This document shows, one piece after another, positions 3,156 through 23,382 of a stretch of 23,382 nucleotides of DNA. The stretch covers positions 1-23,382 of IMG/VR virus record IMGVR_UViG_3300031774_000161. One strand, written 5' to 3'. Within the stretch, counting starts at the first letter, position 1; the number at the start of each line of letters is the position of its first letter. The DNA is from a virus. A program made the position numbers and the translations under genes. Under the pieces are notes generated by a model, which saw nothing but the letters and a program-made list of their open reading frames with translations, was not told where the DNA came from and did no database searches.

Positions 3156-3488
3156 ATGAGTTTTATCAAGAAGAAAGTATCTGCTTATCCTTGGCCTGTT
3201 GAAATTAAAAAACCGTCAGAAGAAATTATTGGTGAGTTTGAAACTCATAAATTTACAATTCGATTTAAAAGATTAGCTAAAAAAGACTTAAATGATTTTC
3301 AAGATAAAGAAGATTATGAAGCCTTAAAAACAATTATTACTGGCTGGTCAGATATAAAAGATGAAGATGATAATGACATTCCTTTTAGTCAAAAAAATTT
3401 AAAAGATTTTTCAGAAGATGTTGATTTTGTTCAAGGAGTAGTAAAAGCATTTCAAACTTTCTACGCAACGGCTGATGAAAAAAACTAA
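3156..3488 (+). CDS. Tail assembly chaperone, lambda G-like (unshifted product)
   Basis: A 110-residue protein read in the zero frame, ending ADEKN then stop. In lambda-type phages the G protein coats the tape measure through its N-terminal domain and supports tube assembly. The sequence begins MSFIKKKVSAYPWPVEI, followed by a beta strand pair (HKFTIRFKRLAKKDLNDF) and an acidic helix-rich part (WSDIKDEDDNDIPFSQKNLKDF). The 'W-x-D-I-x-D-E-D-x-x-x-x-P-F-S-x-x-N-L' element is typical of this chaperone family: a Trp plus 'G/D-x-x-I-P-F-S-x-E-N' precedes the last helix. It is shorter than lambda G (140). The stop follows directly after a slippery heptamer, and the next frame continues as the T-like domain, which makes the assignment strong. 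No good Shine-Dalgarno sequence is visible before the ATG. Confidence 0.85.
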   Translation: MSFIKKKVSAYPWPVEIKKPSEEIIGEFETHKFTIRFKRLAKKDLNDFQDKEDYEALKTIITGWSDIKDEDDNDIPFSQKNLKDFSEDVDFVQGVVKAFQTFYATADEKN

Positions 3489-3829
3489 CTGATGCTGCTC
3501 TTTATTGGGTTTCGGGTGGCAGTAAATCAGATGAACAGGTAGATGAAGATGCCAAAATATTTGGTATCAAATTGCCTGAGAAGCCTAAAGAAGAAGAAAA
3601 AGGATGTGTTGTATGGGAAGAAAATTGGCAAACAGTATTAATGTTTTTAAGGATGCAAACTCAATGGGCTGTGTCAATGAGTGGTTATGTTGGTTTGAAA
3701 TATGAAGTTTTATTAGGTGCAGGAGGTTTGTTTGACCTATACAATGTAAAGGACAGACGAGAAATGCTAGAGGATTTAAAAATCATGGAAGCCGTAGCAT
3801 TGACCGAACTTAACAAGGACTCTAAATAA
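3156..3829 (+). CDS. Tail assembly chaperone GT fusion (via -1 frameshift)
   Basis: The frameshifted product is expected to be 224 residues: 110 from the G-like frame, then 114 from the -1 frame beginning LTDAALYWVSGG. The extension is also visible as a separate frame with an ATG-less start; the downstream part VWEENWQTVLMFLRMQTQW, then a Gly-rich turn, then the helix LEDLKIMEAVALTEL, matches the DUF1799 family, which is the usual C-terminal half of such chaperones. In lambda the T domain recruits tube subunits to the tape measure-G complex, and a low GT:G ratio is needed. Its stop overlaps the tape measure start (TAATG at 3827-3831), so translation of the tape measure is probably coupled to frameshifted ribosomes. 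The frameshift efficiency cannot be read from sequence. Confidence 0.85.
3479..3485 (+). promoter_or_regulatory. -1 ribosomal frameshift slippery site A_AAA_AAC
   Basis: The bases AAAAAAC are aligned with the zero frame as A_AAA_AAC, the canonical X_XXY_YYZ heptamer, and the next zero-frame codon is the TAA stop of the G-like gene. Slipping back one base resumes at CTA 3485 and opens a frame that runs without a stop to 3829. The placement, frame direction and gene order are those of the lambda G/GT system. Confidence 0.9.
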
Positions 3830-13827: not shown

Positions 13828-14697
13828 ATGCCGACCTATTTAGGTAGTGGAGGGTTTATTGAATTTAAGCGAACTTCTATGGAACATTCGCTTAATGGAA
13901 CCCTTGTGCCTTCAGATGTAAATACAACAAGAAAGCGTTTTTCTTTGACTGGAGTTAAAGGCAATATCATTACTGGAGATAAGGTTGATATAAAAAGAAC
14001 AGATGGTTCTTCAAATTTAGAATTAGTTTCTGGTCATACAGGAAGAGATGGTAGTTGGTTTGCTCATGTTGATGACATAGGAGGTATGCGTTTATATGAA
14101 ACTTTTGCTTTGGCTGTTGGAGGTACAACTGTTAATGCAAAAACCTTGGTTGCTCCATCGGAGAATCAGACAATATCTATAAATGCTAGGAATGTTGCTT
14201 ATAGGCCATTAGCAAGAATTGAAGAATACGAGTTCACGACATCAAGAGATCAAATTGAGATTAGTCAATTAGGAGAGAGTTTTAAACGTCAATTTGAAAA
14301 TGGTTTAATTTCAGGACAAGGTTCGATGACTTGTTTTTGGGAGCATAGATATGTTGCAAGTGATCCTGACTATTCAGCTAATCAAGAATTTTCTTCTTAT
14401 TTAGCTCGTTTAATTTTACGAATAAGACAAGGTGCTGATTTTTTTGGTCGTTTCTTTTTATATAGAGAATCTTCTACTTCTGCTAATAATGCTTGGTATG
14501 AATGTGAAGCTCAAATAACAAATTGCAGTATTAGTATTCCAAATGTAGGGATAGTTAAAACTCAGATAGATTTTATTACTAATGGAGAATTTAGTCTCCA
14601 AGTAGGTGTTGCGCCTGGATACATACTTCAAGAGTCAACCGATTTCATATTGCAAGAAGATGGAAGCAAGCTGTTCTTAGAAGATGATGCGACATAA
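13828..14697 (+). CDS. Tail-tip protein with duplicated 'LQE/LED' C-terminal tail
   Basis: A 289-residue protein whose ATG directly follows the previous stop (TAAATG). It starts PTYLGSGGFIEFKRTSM, a 'G-S-G-G-F-I-E' opening like that of the preceding tube-like protein, and has a middle part (EYEFTTSRDQIEISQLGESF, then FENGLISGQGSMTCFWEH) that repeats the 'W-S/E-F-T-T-x-x-D-x-I-x-I-x-x-L-G-x-x-F-K-R-x-x-x-x-G-x-x-x-G-x-G-S' pattern of tube-type folds. The two adjacent proteins may therefore be related, with an insert of about 90 residues in this one. The last 25 residues carry a short repeated motif, YILQESTDFILQEDGSKLF then LEDDAT, that I associate with tail proteins of marine phages. Function is unknown; a structural role at the tail tip next to the fibre is inferred from fold wording and position. 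Confidence 0.55.
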   Translation: MPTYLGSGGFIEFKRTSMEHSLNGTLVPSDVNTTRKRFSLTGVKGNIITGDKVDIKRTDGSSNLELVSGHTGRDGSWFAHVDDIGGMRLYETFALAVGGTTVNAKTLVAPSENQTISINARNVAYRPLARIEEYEFTTSRDQIEISQLGESFKRQFENGLISGQGSMTCFWEHRYVASDPDYSANQEFSSYLARLILRIRQGADFFGRFFLYRESSTSANNAWYECEAQITNCSISIPNVGIVKTQIDFITNGEFSLQVGVAPGYILQESTDFILQEDGSKLFLEDDAT

Positions 14698-14738: not shown

Positions 14739-17700
14739 ATGGCTGATCTTCAAATAAGTCAACTGCCTGCTTTAGCAGAGGCAGATCTGGCGGCTGTAGA
14801 CGAATTAGCAATAGTTGATGATAGTGCATCAGAAACTAAACGAATTACAGCAAAAGCCTTAGTTGAAAAAGGTGTTGCATTAATTGATGCTGGTTCAATA
14901 CCTGGTACGGCACTTGCAAGTCTTGGAACAGGGACTGTTAATACAGCAGCGATAGCAACCGATGCTGTAACAGCAGATAAGATTTTGGCGGGGGCTGTTG
15001 GTGCTAGTGAAATAGCTAATGGTTCAATAACAGCGACAGAAATAGCGGCAAATACTCTTACTGCAAACGAGATAGCTCCTAATGCAATAGGTGCAAGTGA
15101 ATTAGCTGACAACGCTGTAGATACAAATGCTATAGGTGATCTTGCTGTTACTAACCAAAAGATTGCAAATGGAACTATTGCTTATGCAAAGTTAAATCTT
15201 AGTAATGCAGATATTCCTGGTGCAAAAATTGCGGATAATTCAATAACAGCAGGACAGATAGCTCCTGATGCAGTTGGTGCAAGTGAACTTGCTAATAACG
15301 CTGTTGATACAAATGCAATAGCTAACTTAGCTGTTACATCAGGAAAATTGGCAGCTAATTCTGTAACCGTCGATAAGATCGTTGATGGTGTTATTACAGG
15401 TGCAAAATTAGCAACTGGAACAATTACAGCTACCCAAATAGGTGCTAATGCTGTAGGTGCAAGTGAGCTTGCCAACGATGCTGTCGATACAAATGCAATC
15501 CTTGATGATGCTGTAACTGCTGCAAAAATTGCGGCGGGTGCTGTCGATACAACAGCGTTAGGTGCTGCGGCTGTTACAGGAGCAAAAATTGCTAATACAA
15601 CAATTACAGCGGCGAATATTGTTGCTGGAACAATTACTGCTACTGAACTTGCAGCAGATTCTGTTGGTGCTAGTGAAATAGCTGCAAATGCTGTAGGAGC
15701 TAGTGAACTTGCAGATGATGCAGTTGACACTAATGCAATCGCAAATCTTGCAGTTACTGGAGCAAAGATAGCTAATACAACGATTGCTTATGCAAAACTA
15801 AATCTTTCAGATGGAGACATCCCTGCTGCCAAGATTACTGCTAATTCTTTAACTGCTGATCAAATAGCTGCCAATGCTATAGGAGCAAGTGAATTAGCAA
15901 ATAATTCTGTTGATACTGCTGCTATAGCTGATGACGCAGTTACTGGAGCAAAGATTGCAGCAGCAACTATTACTGGAGCAAATATTGCGGCAACAACAAT
16001 TGCAGCAGGCAATATTGTTGCAAACACTCTTACTGCAAATGAAATAGCTCCTAATGCAATAGGTGCTTCAGAATTAGCAGATGATGCTGTGGACACAGCC
16101 GCTATTGCTGACTCAGCAGTAACTAACGCCAAAATTGCAAATACGACTATTGCTTATGCAAAGTTAAATCTCTCGGACGGAGATATTGCTGGAGCAAAGA
16201 TAACTAATAATTCTCTTACTGCTAATCAAATAGCAGCAAACGCTATAGGAGCAAGTGAGCTTGCCAACGATGCAGTTGACACCAATGCTATTGCAGACGA
16301 TGCGGTTACTGGAGCGAAAATCGCAGCAGGAACAATTACAGCGGCAAATATTGCTGCTGACACGATTACAGCAACTCAATTAGCTGCTGATTCTGTAGGA
16401 GCAAGCGAAATCGTTGCAAATGCAGTAGGAGCTTCAGAACTTGCAGACAATGCGGTGGATACAGCAGCCATAGCAAACTCGGCTGTAACAGGAGCGAAGA
16501 TAGCTGCTTCTACAATTACAGCAGCAAAGTTAAATTTATCTGCTGGAGATATTGATGGAACAAAGATTGCTAATAATTCAATAACAGCAAATCAAATTGC
16601 TGCTAATGCAATTACAGCAAGTGAATTAGCTGATGATGCGGTAGACACAGCAGCAATAGCAAATAATTCTGTTACGGCTGCAAAAATTGCAACAAATGCA
16701 GTTACTGCAACAGAACTTGCGAATAATGCTGTAGATACTGCTGCTGTCGCTGATGGTGCAATAACAACAGCAAAGATCGCTGATGGTGCAGTAACAACAG
16801 CAAAGCTTTCAGGAACTATTGAAGCTGGAACTCTTGCTGATGGCTCAGTAATAACAGCAAAACTTGCAGATGATGCGGTTACAGCCGCTAAACTTGGAGC
16901 AGGGGCTGTTGATACGCTTGCTTTAGGTGCAACTTCTGTAACAACTGCAAAAATTGCTGCTGGAGCAGTTACTGATGCAAAAGTTGCAAGTGGAATTAGT
17001 GGAGCAAAGCTGACTGATGGAACGGTTACAGCAGCCAAGTTCCTTACAACTGATATTGATAGATCTTTAAATATTTCGTCTGGAAAATTAGGGATCAATA
17101 ATACAATTTCTGCTGGAACAAGTGCTGGAATTAGCTATAACGCTCAGGGCTTAATAACCGCTACAACTGCTCTAGTAGCAAGCGATTTGCCTGTTGCAAC
17201 TGCTACTGCCGTTGGTGGCGTTTCTGTTCCTACGTCAGGTGGGTTGACTGTTAGTGGTACTGGTGCGTTATCAATCGCAGCAACAACAACTGGTGCTACA
17301 GCAACAAAAGTTACCTTTAATAATTTCGGACAAATAACTGGTACTGCAACTCTTGCTGCTTCTGATTTACCAAAAGCAACAGCTAGTGCTGTTGGTGCGG
17401 TTTCTGTTCCTACAGGTGGGCCACTTTCTATTGATTCAAATGGTGCAATTACAGTCGCCAACTCTGGAGTTACAGCAGGAACAGGAACAAAAGTAACAGT
17501 TGATGCAAAGGGGCGAGTAACTAATCTTGCAACTCTTACATCATCAGATTTACCTAATCACAGTGCAGCGTTAATTACTTCTGGAACCATCTCAACAGCA
17601 AGGATTGCTAATGATGCAGTTACAGGAACCAAGCTTGCAAACGCTTCAACAACGCTATTTGGATCTGTTGCTCAGACTGGATTCCCGACATCCGAGTTTA

Positions 17701-20700
17701 CAGGGCAATTTTTCTTCGATTCTGTATCTGAAGATTTATACATATATGATGGAAATGCTTATCAACCAGTAACAACTTTAACAAAAGGTTCGCTGGTCTT
17801 TGGAGGTACGTTTAACGCTGCTACAAGTAAAGTTGCAAGTGTAACAACCGCAGGTGCAGCAGGAGGTTTAACTGTAGGATCTAATGTTCCTACTCCAACA
17901 TCTAGTACTGATGGTTTATATTTAGTGGTTGAAAATGCTGGAACTCCAAGTGCGCCTGCTCCTGTAGTTGCTCTCGCTCCACCAGATTACATTTTAGGTG
18001 TTACAAATACATCTGGAAGTTCATGGGAAGAAATTGACTTATCTCAAACAGTAGCAGGTCAAGTTGCAAGTAATATTACCTTCACACCTTATGGTCAAAT
18101 TAGCAGTACTAACGTACAGGATGCTATTCAAGAATTAGAGACAGAGAAGTTAGCAAAAGCTGGTGGTACTGTGACAGGTGAGGTGCTAATAGGTAACACA
18201 GGAACACTTGTTTTTGAAGGTTCTAGTATTGATGCATTTCAGACTACTTTAGGAGTTGTTAACCCAACTACAGCAGATAAAACAATACTTTTACCTAATA
18301 CTTCTGGAACTTTAATAACAAATAACGATTCTGGGACTATTACTTCAGCAATGATTGCTGATGGAACCATTGTTAATGCTGATATAAATGCTTCTGCTGC
18401 TATTGCCCTTACCAAGTTAGAAGGCATTGATTCTGGCAAGATTATTGTTGGTAATGGATCAGGCGTTGCTGCTGAAGTTGCAGTAACAGGAGATATAGCA
18501 ATAACTAACGCAGGTGTTACTTCTATCTCTGCTGGTGCGATTGTTAATGCTGATATTTCTAACTCTGCTGCAATTACTGGCTCAAAAGTTACTACTGGAA
18601 CGACAAGTGCTGTTGGTGTTCTTCAATTAACAGATAGTGCAACATCAACTTCTACTACAACTGCTGCTACTCCTGCTGCTGTCAAGATTGCAAAGGATGC
18701 TGCTGATGCTGCTGCTGTGACAGCCAATGCTGCTTTGCCTAAAGCTGGTGGCTCATTAAGTGACAACTTAATTATTGATAATGCAAAAAGTATTCGACTT
18801 TCTGAAGCTGATTCAAATGGTTCACATTACATAGCATTAAAAGCTCCTAACGCTGTAACGGCTGACATTACTTTCACTTTGCCAGATGGTGATGGCAGTT
18901 CTGGGCAAAGGTTGCAAACCGACGGCTCTGGAAATTTAAGTTGGGGTACAGATAATTCAACAGACCCCACCAAGTTGCCATTAGCAGGTGGCACTATGTC
19001 TGGTGCTATTGCAATGGGTACAAGCAAGATCACTGGTCTTGGAAATCCAACAGCAGCACAAGATGCAGCTACTAAGACTTATGTAGATGCTGCAAGCACA
19101 ACAGGCAATGCAGCTACAGCAACAGCACTAGCAACGGCAAGAACAATAGGGGGCGTTAGTTTTGATGGTTCAGCAAATATAGATTTACCAGGCGTTAATA
19201 CTGCTGGCAACCAAAGCACTACGGGCAACGCTGCGACAGCAACGAAATTTGCTTCTGCGGTCACAATTGGTGGTGTTAGCTTTGACGGTTCAGCCAATAT
19301 CAACCTTCCTGGTGTTAACGCTGCTGGCACTCAAGACACTTCAGGGACGGCAGCACTCGCAACACAATTTACAGTTACAGCAAACAATTCTACAGACGAG
19401 GATGTTTATCCTGTTTTCGTAGACGCAGCTACTGGTTCTCAGGGTGCTGAAACAGATTCTGCTTTAACTTACAACCCTTCGACTGGAGCATTAACTACAA
19501 CAGTATTTATTGGAAATGTAACTGGAAATGTAACTGGAAACACTTCAGGCTCTTCTGGTTCTTGTACTGGAAATGCTGCTACTGCAACAAAATTCGCTTC
19601 AAGTGTAACTATTGGTGGTGTTGCTTTTGATGGATCAGCAAATATTAATCTTCCAGGTGTTAATGCTTCTGGAACGCAAGACACTTCAGGAACAGCAGCC
19701 GTAGCAACTGCAATTACTGTTGCCGATGAATCAACTGATACCTCTTGCAATGTTTTATTTACAACCGCAGCAACAGGAAATTTAGGTGCTAAGTCAGGAA
19801 CAAATTTAACTTTCAACTCAAATACTGGAGAGTTAGCAGCAACATTATTTAGTGGCTCAGGTGCTTCCTTAACGACATTAAATGCGTCAAACATTTCTAG
19901 TGGAACACTTGCAGCAGCTAGGGTTGCAACACTTAATCAAGACACAACAGGAACAGCAGCACTCGCAACTTCATTCACAGTTACAGCTAATAATTCAACC
20001 GATGAAACTGTTTATCTATTATTTGCTGATGGAGCAACAGGATCACAAGGGGCTGAGACAGATACAGGCTTAACTTATAATCCTTCAACTGGACTATTAA
20101 CTTCAACGGGATTTAGTGGAGTTGGAACTTCATTAACAGCCTTAAATGCAAGCAATTTGGCTTCAGGGACAGTAGCCACAGCAAGGTTAGGAAGTGGAAC
20201 TGCAAGTAGTTCTAATTTCTTAAGGGGAGATAATACTTGGCAGACAATAGATTTAACTGCTCTTTCTGCAAGCAACTTAACTTCTGGCACTGTTCCAGAT
20301 GCAAGATTTCCTGCAACACTTCCTGCTGCTAGTGGAGCAAACTTAACAGCTTTAAATGCTTCAAACTTAAGTTCTGGAACTGTCAATGTTGCAAGACTTG
20401 GATCAGGTAGTTCTGTTACCACCAAATTCCTAAGAGGTGACAATACTTGGCAAACAATTTCTGCCACACCAGAAGGTACAGCAATACTTTCAACAGGCGA
20501 ATCAGGCGGTACTAAGTTCCTAAGAGAAGACGGCGACGGAACGTGTTCTTGGCAATCCGTTCCTGCCGCAGTCACAATTAATAATCAGGCAGACAATAGG
20601 ATTGTTACAGCCACTGGAACGACTAATACTTTAAATGGAGAGGCCAGTCTTACTTTTGATGGAACTAATTTAGATCTTGGTGATGATAAGAAAATTCGTC

Positions 20701-23382
20701 TTGGGGATTCTGCTGAGTTATCACTTTATACACGAGGTTCTGATTCCAATTCTGTTATTGAAGAATCTGGATCAGGAGTTTTATTTGTTTCAGCACCGTT
20801 TGTAAGAATTACTAATAGTGGATTAAGTACCTCAGCAGCACTTTTCCAAACTGCTGGATCATGTGAGTTGTCATACGCAGGAACCAAGAAGATAGAAACG
20901 ACTTCTTCAGGAGTGGCAGTTACAGGAGCATTAACAATAAGTGGAGATCTCACTGTAAATGGCACAACTACTACGATTGATACAACAACACTTCAGGTAG
21001 AAGATAAGAATATAGAAATCGGAAAAGTATCAAGTCCTAGTGATAGCACCGCAGATGGAGGGGGCATAACTTTACTTGGAGCTACAAATAAGACATGGAA
21101 CTGGGTTAATTCAACTGATGCTTGGACATCTTCCGAACATATTCAAGTTGCTAGTGGTAAGACATTTATTGGAGATGGTTCAACCTTAACTGCTTTAAAC
21201 GCTTCAAACTTAGCTTCTGGAACGGTAGCACCAGCGAGACTTGGAAGTGGATCGGCTTCTCAATATAACTTCTTAAGAGGTGATGGTTCTTGGCAAGAAG
21301 TGATGACTCTAGGAGGAGGCAACTTCAATTCTGGGGCTGATGTGAAGTTTCAAGGTAGTGCTTCAAATAAAGATCTTGAGTGGGATGCGTCAGCATATTC
21401 TTTAATATTCAATGATGATGTAAAAGCAGTATTTGGAACAAGTTCAGACGGCCTAGAAATATTCCATAATGCAAGTGATAGCGTTATAAATGATAATGGG
21501 ACAGGCTCTTTAAAACTTCAACTTGGCGGTTCTACCAAAGCAGAGGTAGTTTCTGGTGGTTTTACAGTAACAGGAACAGCAACAGCGACTACCTTTAGTG
21601 GTTCGGGTGCTTCTCTTTCTAATTTAAACGCTGATAATATTTCTTCTGGAACAGTACCAACAGCAAGACTTGGAAGTGGTACAGCTTCAAGCTCTAACTT
21701 CTTAAGAGGTGATGGATCGTGGCAGACAATAGATGTTTCAGCTTACGCTCCATTAGCAGGAGCAACCTTCACTGGTGATGTTCAATTTAATGGAGACAAC
21801 TACAACCTTCTCTGGGATAAGTCAGATAACGCTTTAGAACTTGCTCAACAAGCGACCCTTAAAATTGGTTCTTATACGATCACAGAAAATTCAGGTGGTT
21901 ATTTGCAATTCGATAGCAACAGTGCTGCTGGTAGTACATATTTTAAAGATGATACCCAATTTAATATCAATTCAGCAGTAATTAAGTTTGAAAATTACGC
22001 ATCAAATCAAGATTATTTTAAAGCAACTTCTTCGGCAGTTGAATTATATGCAAGCGGTACAAAAAGACTTCATACGAATAGTAACGGCGTATACATAACT
22101 GGATCATGTTATGCGAGTGGAGGATTTAGCGGCTCAGGTGCAAACTTAACTAACCTTCCAGGTGTCACTTCAGATGCTCAGAAAAATACGGTTGGTGGTA
22201 CAAACGCAGGAGATAGTTTCAGTGGAACAAGTGCGGAATACAATACGTTATTTGGCTACGATACTGGAACTGCAATAACAACAGGCGATAAAAACACAGC
22301 CTTTGGTTATAGGGCTATGTATCACATAAATACAGGCTCAGATAATACATACATGGGATTTGAGGCGGGAGAAGGAGGACAAGATAGAAATAAAAATACT
22401 TATATTGGTTCATACGCTGGTAAGAACAACAGTACTGGATTTAACAATACAGCTATTGGATATTCTGCATTAGGTCAATCAGGAACAGGAGGTGGAAATG
22501 TCTGTGTAGGTTATGAAGCAGGTACTGCTGTAGGTGGTGATGGTAGTGAAAATGTAATTCTGGGTATGTCGGCAGGTAGTCTCGGTGGAAATTATTCAAT
22601 AAGGAATGTAGCTATTGGATCACAAGCAATAGGGGCTGGAAATGGAGCCGTCAAAGAAAACGTAGCTATCGGCTATAAAACATTATATGGAGGATCAGGT
22701 GGTATTACAGGCGATAGAAATATAGCAATTGGATTTGAGGCAGGAAAAACAGTTACTTCAGGTGAAAAAAATATTGCAATTGGTACTGGTGCTGGTGGTG
22801 CTCTTGGAAGTAATTCTGGAAATATATTTATTGGAGATAGCGCAGGATACAGTGCTGGTAGTGCTGCTGATTCTATTTGTATTGGTAATTCAGCAGATCC
22901 TAATGATGGAACTGACAATATAGCGATTGGTCATAATGCTGTTAACGAGCAATTTAGTAGTCATCAAATAACTCTTGGACACACAAATATCACCAGTTTC
23001 CGTATCCCAGGAATTGATTTCTATCTAAAAGACAATGGTGGTACGCCTAGTCAAGGACAAGTATTAACAGCAGATGCGAATGGTAAAGGTTACTGGGCTG
23101 ATACTAGTGGTGGGGTTTCAGGTGAGTTTACTGCTACAGCCGATGGTGCTATTACCGCTAACGATCCTGTAAGCATTATGGGTGACGGTAAATTGAAAAA
23201 ATGTGGAGAAGTTACTTTTGATGCTGATTGGACAATGGGATCTACAACAACTCTTGATTCAACAAAGAAATGGGAATATTCTGCTGGCGCTCCTGATCCT
23301 CACAAAACTAATAGATTTGCAATTACTTTTACGGATGATAATAGTGATAAATATGTCTATTTACAGATTTACACTATCTCTG
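14739..23382 (+). CDS. Giant tail fibre protein (3' partial, at least 2881 residues)
   Basis: Translating this frame codon by codon from ATG 14739 to the right edge shows no stop, so one ORF of 8.6 kb continues past the window. Residues 1-64 (ADLQISQLPALAEADLAA, then ETKRITAKALVE) form the probable attachment domain, a wording I know from marine phage fibres. Then: about 65-770 tandem decapeptides; about 810-895 a duplicated SDLP...AVG...VSVPT block; 980-1130 a non-repetitive part with FFFDSVSEDLYIYDG; 1410-1450 the common fibre block LPLAGGTMSGAI...TKTYVDAA; 1469-1780 a duplicated 115-residue module; 1803-2331 four FLRGD repeats around a VNGTTTTIDTTTLQVEDKN block; 2502-2747 a beta-roll-like array. 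The right-hand end reads GQVLTADANGKGYWAD, which in many fibres leads to an intramolecular chaperone domain; that would lie outside. It presumably binds the host surface. Only a weak ribosome binding site (AAGAG) precedes the start. Confidence 0.88.
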   Translation, partial: MADLQISQLPALAEADLAAVDELAIVDDSASETKRITAKALVEKGVALIDAGSIPGTALASLGTGTVNTAAIATDAVTADKILAGAVGASEIANGSITATEIAANTLTANEIAPNAIGASELADNAVDTNAIGDLAVTNQKIANGTIAYAKLNLSNADIPGAKIADNSITAGQIAPDAVGASELANNAVDTNAIANLAVTSGKLAANSVTVDKIVDGVITGAKLATGTITATQIGANAVGASELANDAVDTNAILDDAVTAAKIAAGAVDTTALGAAAVTGAKIANTTITAANIVAGTITATELAADSVGASEIAANAVGASELADDAVDTNAIANLAVTGAKIANTTIAYAKLNLSDGDIPAAKITANSLTADQIAANAIGASELANNSVDTAAIADDAVTGAKIAAATITGANIAATTIAAGNIVANTLTANEIAPNAIGASELADDAVDTAAIADSAVTNAKIANTTIAYAKLNLSDGDIAGAKITNNSLTANQIAANAIGASELANDAVDTNAIADDAVTGAKIAAGTITAANIAADTITATQLAADSVGASEIVANAVGASELADNAVDTAAIANSAVTGAKIAASTITAAKLNLSAGDIDGTKIANNSITANQIAANAITASELADDAVDTAAIANNSVTAAKIATNAVTATELANNAVDTAAVADGAITTAKIADGAVTTAKLSGTIEAGTLADGSVITAKLADDAVTAAKLGAGAVDTLALGATSVTTAKIAAGAVTDAKVASGISGAKLTDGTVTAAKFLTTDIDRSLNISSGKLGINNTISAGTSAGISYNAQGLITATTALVASDLPVATATAVGGVSVPTSGGLTVSGTGALSIAATTTGATATKVTFNNFGQITGTATLAASDLPKATASAVGAVSVPTGGPLSIDSNGAITVANSGVTAGTGTKVTVDAKGRVTNLATLTSSDLPNHSAALITSGTISTARIANDAVTGTKLANASTTLFGSVAQTGFPTSEFTGQFFFDSVSEDLYIYDGNAYQPVTTLTKGSLVFGGTFNAATSKVASVTTAGAAGGLTVGSNVPTPTSSTDGLYLVVENAGTPSAPAPVVALAPPDYILGVTNTSGSSWEEIDLSQTVAGQVASNITFTPYGQISSTNVQDAIQELETEKLAKAGGTVTGEVLIGNTGTLVFEGSSIDAFQTTLGVVNPTTADKTILLPNTSGTLITNNDSGTITSAMIADGTIVNADINASAAIALTKLEGIDSGKIIVGNGSGVAAEVAVTGDIAITNAGVTSISAGAIVNADISNSAAITGSKVTTGTTSAVGVLQLTDSATSTSTTTAATPAAVKIAKDAADAAAVTANAALPKAGGSLSDNLIIDNAKSIRLSEADSNGSHYIALKAPNAVTADITFTLPDGDGSSGQRLQTDGSGNLSWGTDNSTDPTKLPLAGGTMSGAIAMGTSKITGLGNPTAAQDAATKTYVDAASTTGNAATATALATARTIGGVSFDGSANIDLPGVNTAGNQSTTGNAATATKFASAVTIGGVSFDGSANINLPGVNAAGTQDTSGTAALATQFTVTANNSTDEDVYPVFVDAATGSQGAETDSALTYNPSTGALTTTVFIGNVTGNVTGNTSGSSGSCTGNAATATKFASSVTIGGVAFDGSANINLPGVNASGTQDTSGTAAVATAITVADESTDTSCNVLFTTAATGNLGAKSGTNLTFNSNTGELAATLFSGSGASLTTLNASNISSGTLAAARVATLNQDTTGTAALATSFTVTANNSTDETVYLLFADGATGSQGAETDTGLTYNPSTGLLTSTGFSGVGTSLTALNASNLASGTVATARLGSGTASSSNFLRGDNTWQTIDLTALSASNLTSGTVPDARFPATLPAASGANLTALNASNLSSGTVNVARLGSGSSVTTKFLRGDNTWQTISATPEGTAILSTGESGGTKFLREDGDGTCSWQSVPAAVTINNQADNRIVTATGTTNTLNGEASLTFDGTNLDLGDDKKIRLGDSAELSLYTRGSDSNSVIEESGSGVLFVSAPFVRITNSGLSTSAALFQTAGSCELSYAGTKKIETTSSGVAVTGALTISGDLTVNGTTTTIDTTTLQVEDKNIEIGKVSSPSDSTADGGGITLLGATNKTWNWVNSTDAWTSSEHIQVASGKTFIGDGSTLTALNASNLASGTVAPARLGSGSASQYNFLRGDGSWQEVMTLGGGNFNSGADVKFQGSASNKDLEWDASAYSLIFNDDVKAVFGTSSDGLEIFHNASDSVINDNGTGSLKLQLGGSTKAEVVSGGFTVTGTATATTFSGSGASLSNLNADNISSGTVPTARLGSGTASSSNFLRGDGSWQTIDVSAYAPLAGATFTGDVQFNGDNYNLLWDKSDNALELAQQATLKIGSYTITENSGGYLQFDSNSAAGSTYFKDDTQFNINSAVIKFENYASNQDYFKATSSAVELYASGTKRLHTNSNGVYITGSCYASGGFSGSGANLTNLPGVTSDAQKNTVGGTNAGDSFSGTSAEYNTLFGYDTGTAITTGDKNTAFGYRAMYHINTGSDNTYMGFEAGEGGQDRNKNTYIGSYAGKNNSTGFNNTAIGYSALGQSGTGGGNVCVGYEAGTAVGGDGSENVILGMSAGSLGGNYSIRNVAIGSQAIGAGNGAVKENVAIGYKTLYGGSGGITGDRNIAIGFEAGKTVTSGEKNIAIGTGAGGALGSNSGNIFIGDSAGYSAGSAADSICIGNSADPNDGTDNIAIGHNAVNEQFSSHQITLGHTNITSFRIPGIDFYLKDNGGTPSQGQVLTADANGKGYWADTSGGVSGEFTATADGAITANDPVSIMGDGKLKKCGEVTFDADWTMGSTTTLDSTKKWEYSAGAPDPHKTNRFAITFTDDNSDKYVYLQIYTIS
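14931..17050 (+). repeat. Tandem decapeptide repeats in the fibre (30-nt period)
   Basis: The protein reads as consecutive ten-residue units such as NAVGASELAD, NAVDTNAIAD, DAVTGAKIAA, GTITAANIAA and NSLTANQIAA. The pattern is small/Asn, x, Val/Ile, Thr/Gly/Asp, x, x, x, Ile/Leu, Ala, x. By hand count about 60 units occur, broken by four 22-residue units. Near the 3' end two units shrink to nine residues. Nucleotide identity between units is moderate, so the repetition is mainly at protein level. Confidence 0.9.
15171..16574 (+). repeat. 366-nt super-repeat set by a 22-residue KLNL unit
   Basis: Four copies of a 22-residue unit, with core AYAKLNLSDGDI or close, start at 15171, 15777, 16143 and 16509. 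The last two spacings are exactly 366 nt (ten decapeptides plus one 22-residue unit); the first is 606 nt, which is 366 plus eight extra decapeptides (240 nt). The arrangement indicates segmental duplication of a whole 122-residue block. Confidence 0.85.
17178..17420 (+). repeat. Two copies of an SDLP-AVG-VSVPT block, 180 nt apart
   Basis: The fibre sequence ASDLPVATATAVGGVSVPT (from 17178) recurs as ASDLPKATASAVGAVSVPT (from 17358). The two copies are offset by exactly 180 nt (60 residues), and each is followed by a beta-rich Gly/Thr segment, so a 60-residue domain has been duplicated. Confidence 0.75.
19143..20121 (+). repeat. Duplicated 345-nt fibre module with third partial copies
   Basis: TIGGVSFDGSANI-LPGVN occurs from 19143, 19263 and 19608; the last two mark a 345-nt (115-residue) tandem duplication. 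Each is followed by SGTAA, an 'ITV/FTV...STD' strand block and a 'G.LTYNPSTG' or 'LTFNSNTG' block. A third copy of the second half begins at 19947 and is very close to the first (NNSTDE, ATGSQGAETD, LTYNPSTG), offset 606 nt. Confidence 0.8.
20145..21731 (+). repeat. Four 105-nt NASNL-FLRGD-W repeats
   Basis: Four 35-residue copies lie at 20145-20249, 20355-20459, 21198-21302 and 21627-21731, each exactly 105 nt. All read N/D-A-x-N-L/I-x-S-G-T-V, then ARLGSG, five or six variable residues, FLRGD and a final Trp-Gln. They are dispersed rather than tandem and frame longer unique segments, as interdomain linkers would. The 'RGD' here is probably incidental. Confidence 0.85.
22242..22979 (+). repeat. 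N-x-x-I-G beta-roll-like array, 15 motifs
   Basis: Motifs of the type N-T/V/I-A-I-G-x-x-A-G start at 22242, 22293, 22344, 22395, 22446, 22497, 22551, 22605, 22659, 22719, 22770, 22821, 22872, 22917 and 22965. Spacing is 51 nt for eight steps, with 54, 60, 45 and 48 elsewhere. The wording resembles the head repeats of YadA-type trimeric autotransporters, though those are usually 14-15 residues and these are mostly 17. Confidence 0.85.

Follow-up and report, generated by a model that had tools for sequence, protein, structure and literature searches.

A decapeptide array of constant length in a long phage tail-fibre gene, probably the proximal shaft of a trimeric fibre

A very long tail-fibre gene in this DNA of a marine phage carries, close to its start, more than six hundred residues of a ten-residue repeat, which raises the question of what such an array builds and whether its length matters. 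The window, that is, the whole stretch of DNA analysed, is a virus record of 23,382 bases whose late genes all run in one direction, from the end of the major capsid protein through head-completion and tail genes, the tape measure, a J-like tip protein and the small tail proteins to the fibre gene. The fibre gene lies 3' of the tape measure and J-like genes in the same direction, directly downstream of the tail-tip genes, and matches phrog_892 (tail fibre) with an E value of 5.9e-120, including 13 matched stretches inside the array. Other PHROG tail-fibre families also match along the gene, and its later part matches Phage_fiber_2 above the Pfam cut-off. The features discussed below are as follows.

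14739..23381, + strand: long tail-fibre gene, 2881 aa, open at the window end (no stop), from the ORF list and PHROG families
14739..14933, + strand: N-terminal module, aa 1-65, MADLQISQLPALAEADL..., retained in relatives at the locus, including those in which the array is replaced
14934..16817, + strand: regular array, aa 66-693, 58 decapeptides and four 12-residue units, from the unit parse and lag analysis
15174..15209, + strand: 12-residue unit 1, TIAYAKLNLSNA, starting at aa 146
15780..15815, + strand: 12-residue unit 2, TIAYAKLNLSDG, starting at aa 348, 20 units and 606 nt past unit 1
16146..16181, + strand: 12-residue unit 3, TIAYAKLNLSDG, starting at aa 470, 12 units and 366 nt past unit 2
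16512..16547, + strand: 12-residue unit 4, TITAAKLNLSAG, starting at aa 592, 12 units and 366 nt past unit 3
16818..17051, + strand: array end, aa 694-771, two 9-residue interruptions (IEAGTLADG and ISGAKLTDG) among six looser decapeptides, followed by the next domain

The N-terminal module, which has a weak match to the tail-fibre family phrog_35419, presumably attaches the fibre to the tail. Beyond the array, later repeats were seen at aa 1470-1636 and 1714-2330 (IGGVxFDGSANI three times, LNASNLSSGTVxxARL five times and FLRGDxxWQ four times), and aa 2540-2740 (about nt 22356-22958) carry repeated N-x-AIGYxA motifs like those repeated in the heads of trimeric autotransporters, YadA for example; all Pfam models for this last region stayed below cut-off. 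Elsewhere in the window, the heptamer A_AAA_AAC at 3479-3485 immediately precedes the stop codon that closes the first tail-assembly-chaperone ORF (3156-3488); a one-base slip back there leads into the open frame of a second ORF (3572-3829), and the heptamer is likely a -1 frameshift site as in lambda G/GT. Compared by capsid protein, the nearest isolates infect Roseobacter and Synechococcus and reach about 50%; a search of bacterial and archaeal genomes for a related gene that might reveal the host found none.

The anatomy of the array was determined by an independent unit parse, in which aa 66-693 resolved into 62 units in unbroken register with no remainder, the sole excess being two residues in four of the units; the first-pass annotation had counted some 60 decapeptides. 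The decapeptide consensus is [AST]1 [VI]2 [TDG]3 A4 A5 [KEA]6 [IL]7 A8 x9 [NDG]10, where position 3 is S, T, D, N or G in 54 of 58 decapeptides and N, G or D stands at the unit end in 52. The KLNL motif begins at nt 15189, 15795, 16161 and 16527, and the gaps of 606, 366 and 366 nt agree exactly with the earlier reading of a 366-nt spacing with one longer interval. What that annotation took for a 22-residue KLNL unit does shift the register by two residues, but it is really a 12-mer followed by one ordinary decapeptide. Its description of a near-perfect array holds for length, register and positions 2 and 7, which are hydrophobic in all 58 decapeptides, but not for overall identity, since any two units share a mean of 3.7 of 10 residues; and the array makes up about a quarter, rather than the first third, of a gene that the window end cuts off.

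The periodicity is equally clear from self-comparison. Identity by lag peaks at 0.50 for a lag of 122 residues and 0.33 for a lag of 10, with adjoining lags at 0.07-0.12, and in 1000 shuffles it never exceeded 0.18, which excludes chance. TRF and a repeat finder returned the 30- and 366-nt periods that had been proposed, together with a 300-nt repeat spaced 606/366/366, and each 122-residue block shows an extra layer of 62+60 residues (lags 60 and 62). Hydrophobicity has a sharp 5-residue period, with a power of 132-217 at 72 degrees against 0-4.9 at 100 degrees. No two-unit alternation was seen in the window array, no Pfam or NCBIfam model matched it above cut-off and a PDB sequence search with the array itself gave no match.

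The neighbouring 289-aa gene (window 13828-14697, just 5' of the fibre gene) matched no PHROG family; its relatives defined 48 loci in viral contigs, and most of those that reach far enough have a similar fibre beside it. Over 625 residues, the arrays of 19 relatives at the same locus can be aligned gap-free to that of the window, with 78-88% identity, although third codon positions are 55-69% identical and synonymous sites are nearly saturated in some of these relatives. The order of interruptions and units at the array end is also the same in relatives. At four-fold codons of unchanged residues, orthologues share 0.48-0.68 against a chance level of 0.40, whereas paralogous blocks within the window share 0.29-0.51, about chance; orthologous units are identical at 8.2 of 10 residues and paralogous ones at 3.7. 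These comparisons indicate that the blocks predate the divergence of these phages, that there has been no visible homogenisation and that the number of units has been fixed. The array is old, and its length is unusually constant among relatives.

These data bear directly on whether the array evolves fast as a tandem repeat of variable length, with copy number as a tuning knob for the phage, a reading that the comparisons mostly refute and that we consider very improbable. It can draw on the differences between clades, since one relative (L013) has 32 more units and another class (L026-L032) 32 fewer, in each case two 12-mer intervals or 324 residues, but 19 relatives unchanged across a long divergence, the 8.2 against 3.7 identity of units and paralogous codons at chance level are not what such a repeat would leave behind. 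In L013 the additional 324 residues (202+122) are in register and bring two additional 12-mers; the insert is similar to the 202-residue block of L013 itself (61%) and to further array material (52%), two units having been lost and two gained. These copies are old too, with a synonymous match of 0.45-0.49 against 0.40 by chance. In the L026-L032 class a single 12-mer interval of 122 residues replaces the 202, 122 and 122 of the window, so that 324 residues (202+122; 32 units) are lacking between the first and last 12-mer. The proposed recombination of whole blocks is therefore borne out in part: rare and old changes by whole units do occur, but 19 relatives show no change at all, the step found is 972 nt (two blocks, 202+122 aa) and not the 366 or 240 nt that had been predicted beside 30 nt, and L013 also shows shifts by two decapeptides (182 and 142 against 202 and 122).

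A further set of relatives (L033, L034, L035, L036, L038, L039 and L040) shows a swap of the putative shaft: the N-terminal module is kept, as is an end motif like that of the window (in most of them ISGTKLTDG), but the repeat between the two is another one, with units that carry ITNAQLAG and SVSFG motifs.

The decapeptide is not confined to this lineage. Arrays of up to 46 units were found in many other, unrelated phages, among them cyanophages, roseophages and Arthrobacter, Lactobacillus and Marinitoga phages. In Synechococcus phage S-TIP37 the array (aa 104-393) follows a T7 gp17 N-terminal domain, as it does in L084; in L090 it shares a protein with a T5 PB4 spike domain and in L083 with a C-terminal Peptidase_S74 chaperone domain; in L127 it lies within a J-like protein, and the long array of L076 is preceded by a region resembling the T5 baseplate hub pb3. 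These partners belong to trimeric fibres or hubs, the gp17 N-terminal, PB4 spike and S74 domains being known from homotrimeric fibres, and no other evidence speaks as strongly for a trimeric rod as this company of trimer-forming domains.

Taken together, these data suggest that the array forms a spacer shaft at the proximal end of a homotrimeric tail fibre, to which we assign a probability of roughly 70%; for the window protein itself, we infer both the trimeric state and the spacer function. The fibrous shaft with periodic joints of the first-pass annotation fits this evidence. In such a fibre the short N-terminal module would serve as the anchor on the tail, the arrays of three parallel chains would intertwine into a thin rod that holds the fibre off the virus, and the later repeats and distal domains would meet the host. 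Rod length would be set by the number of decapeptides. Within each unit, positions 2 (V/I) and 7 (I/L) would point to the shared core, position 3 (T/D/G) would open a short turn, to be closed by positions 9-10 (N/D/G). With the 12-mer the linker would become two residues longer and gain a second leucine (KLNL), which may shift the phase of the rod, so that the 12-mers would act at set heights as joints or as marks of register.

The fold of such a shaft can be proposed more tentatively. With its pattern hydrophobic-T/D-x-x-K/E-hydrophobic and N/G at the end, the unit resembles a short, capped turn of helix, and a helix-plus-turn fold is the closest precedent, although we hold it at somewhat less than even odds. 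R-pyocin fibres are trimeric helix-plus-turn rods with a topology like that of the phi29 head-fibre stem (PMC6116203). A regular alpha-helical coiled coil is disfavoured, as the 5-residue period is nearly without an alpha-helical component and almost no power is found at 100 degrees. Two single-chain AlphaFold2 runs were unreliable and contradict each other: the first (pLDDT 42) put 12 helical turns inside units, at positions 4-6, where a helix-plus-turn rod would have its short helices, and the second (pLDDT 62, pTM 0.23) gave one long helix broken at the 12-mer, at odds with such a rod. Neither of these low-confidence models contains a strand or solenoid, which counts against both of the following alternatives.

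The array could instead be an intertwined trimeric beta-structure of the triple beta-helix or beta-spiral type, which would still act as a spacer. Many phage spikes and shafts have such folds and the units are rich in the strand-favouring residues V, I and T; a period of 10 with hydrophobics five residues apart differs from the 8 of T4 gp5 and the approximately 15 of the adenovirus fibre, however, and the conserved residues at turn start and turn end suit short capped turns, so that we regard a beta-structure as unlikely. A monomeric right-handed quadrilateral beta-helix of the pentapeptide type, or a DotG-like solenoid, in which each decapeptide would be two pentapeptides, appears more improbable still. 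The hydrophobics every five positions are as expected for it, an array profile matches DotG (E 6e-11) and, at E 0.002-0.1, 2j8k, 3du1 and designed pentapeptide proteins, and two other arrays have weak Pentapeptide_4 matches below cut-off, whereas the array of the window has no Pfam pentapeptide match. At i-2 before V2, where such a coil requires a small apolar side chain, 45 of 58 units have N, D or G, and the DotG and pentapeptide matches may stem from composition and the common 5-residue step.

The placement of the 12-mers may hold information on the geometry of the shaft. K6 and L7 are present in 80 of 80 12-mers, L or I at position 9 in all and G12 in 76 of 80. Over all loci, among 20 non-redundant neighbouring pairs the spacing is 8, 12, 14, 18 or 20 units, with 12 in 14 pairs and an odd number in none; the distances 116, 121, 164 and 324 fall off the even rule or hide an unrecognised 12-mer. 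As the rule draws on five distinct values from related phages and 12-mer pairs share descent, it is suggestive and not proven. In the arrays of L076, L083, L084 and L095 even lags (20, 40 and 60) are more alike than odd ones, hinting at a two-unit repeat in the sequence, and those of L090 and L091 show a three-unit repeat. It is possible, if rather doubtful, that the decapeptide is a distinct and widespread rod-building unit without a solved array, in which the 12-mers are phase marks bound to even counts, preferably 12, as the rod repeats by a pair of units (20 residues). If so, sequence arithmetic would directly read out the helical geometry of the rod.

Repeat-bearing tail fibres are already known, and the decapeptide sits inside PHROG tail-fibre families; as far as we searched, however, the unit had not been described before, the regular placing of 12-mers at fixed intervals and the frozen length are likewise new, and our literature search on decapeptide or ten-residue tail-fibre repeats found none. 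One decapeptide builds the fibre proteins of many unrelated phages, yet no Pfam or NCBIfam model matched it and no long array is known to have been solved. That so long a repeat keeps exactly the same length as the underlying DNA diverges suggests that fibre length and phase are tightly constrained.

Among known structures, the rod and shaft of the R1 and R2 pyocin fibres are, like the rod proposed here, thin intertwined trimers of very short helices, turns and variable linkers (PMC6116203), but their units are shorter, irregular and not visible in sequence, and no sequence match to the array was found. The stem of phi29 gp8.5 is likewise a trimeric rod of repeated short helices, with a rise of about 10 A per helix (PMC6116203). 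Scaled by this rise and by the published 93 A of the 70-residue pyocin shaft, aa 60-700 of the fibre would measure about 60-95 nm. As a sequence relative gp8.5 was rejected, since it contains no decapeptide and its best unit score is 1.3 against mostly 10-20 in the array on a similar scale. In the PDB the array profile picks up no fibre as readily as DotG and pentapeptide-repeat proteins; DotG/IcmE and these proteins share 10- or 5-residue repeats with hydrophobics every five residues, and the array departs from the pentapeptide coil at the inward position. The first-pass annotation knew of no described structure for the repeat, and this holds as far as searched: the sole solved chain found, by sequence alone, is 9eg4 chain H (orf16, 269 aa), with four consecutive decapeptides at residues about 95-133, a very short run in a small protein. 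The entry holds 7 chains of orf16, the number that a three-fold decoration or head fibre of a T=7 capsid would have, and orf16 may be such a protein. The fibres of marine podoviruses and others outside the window lineage (S-TIP37, P-GSP1, P-SSP2/3 and DSS3 phages; phrog_892-type families) are without regularly spaced 12-mers and have other N-terminal anchors, but carry the same decapeptide in long arrays within fibre or J-like proteins.
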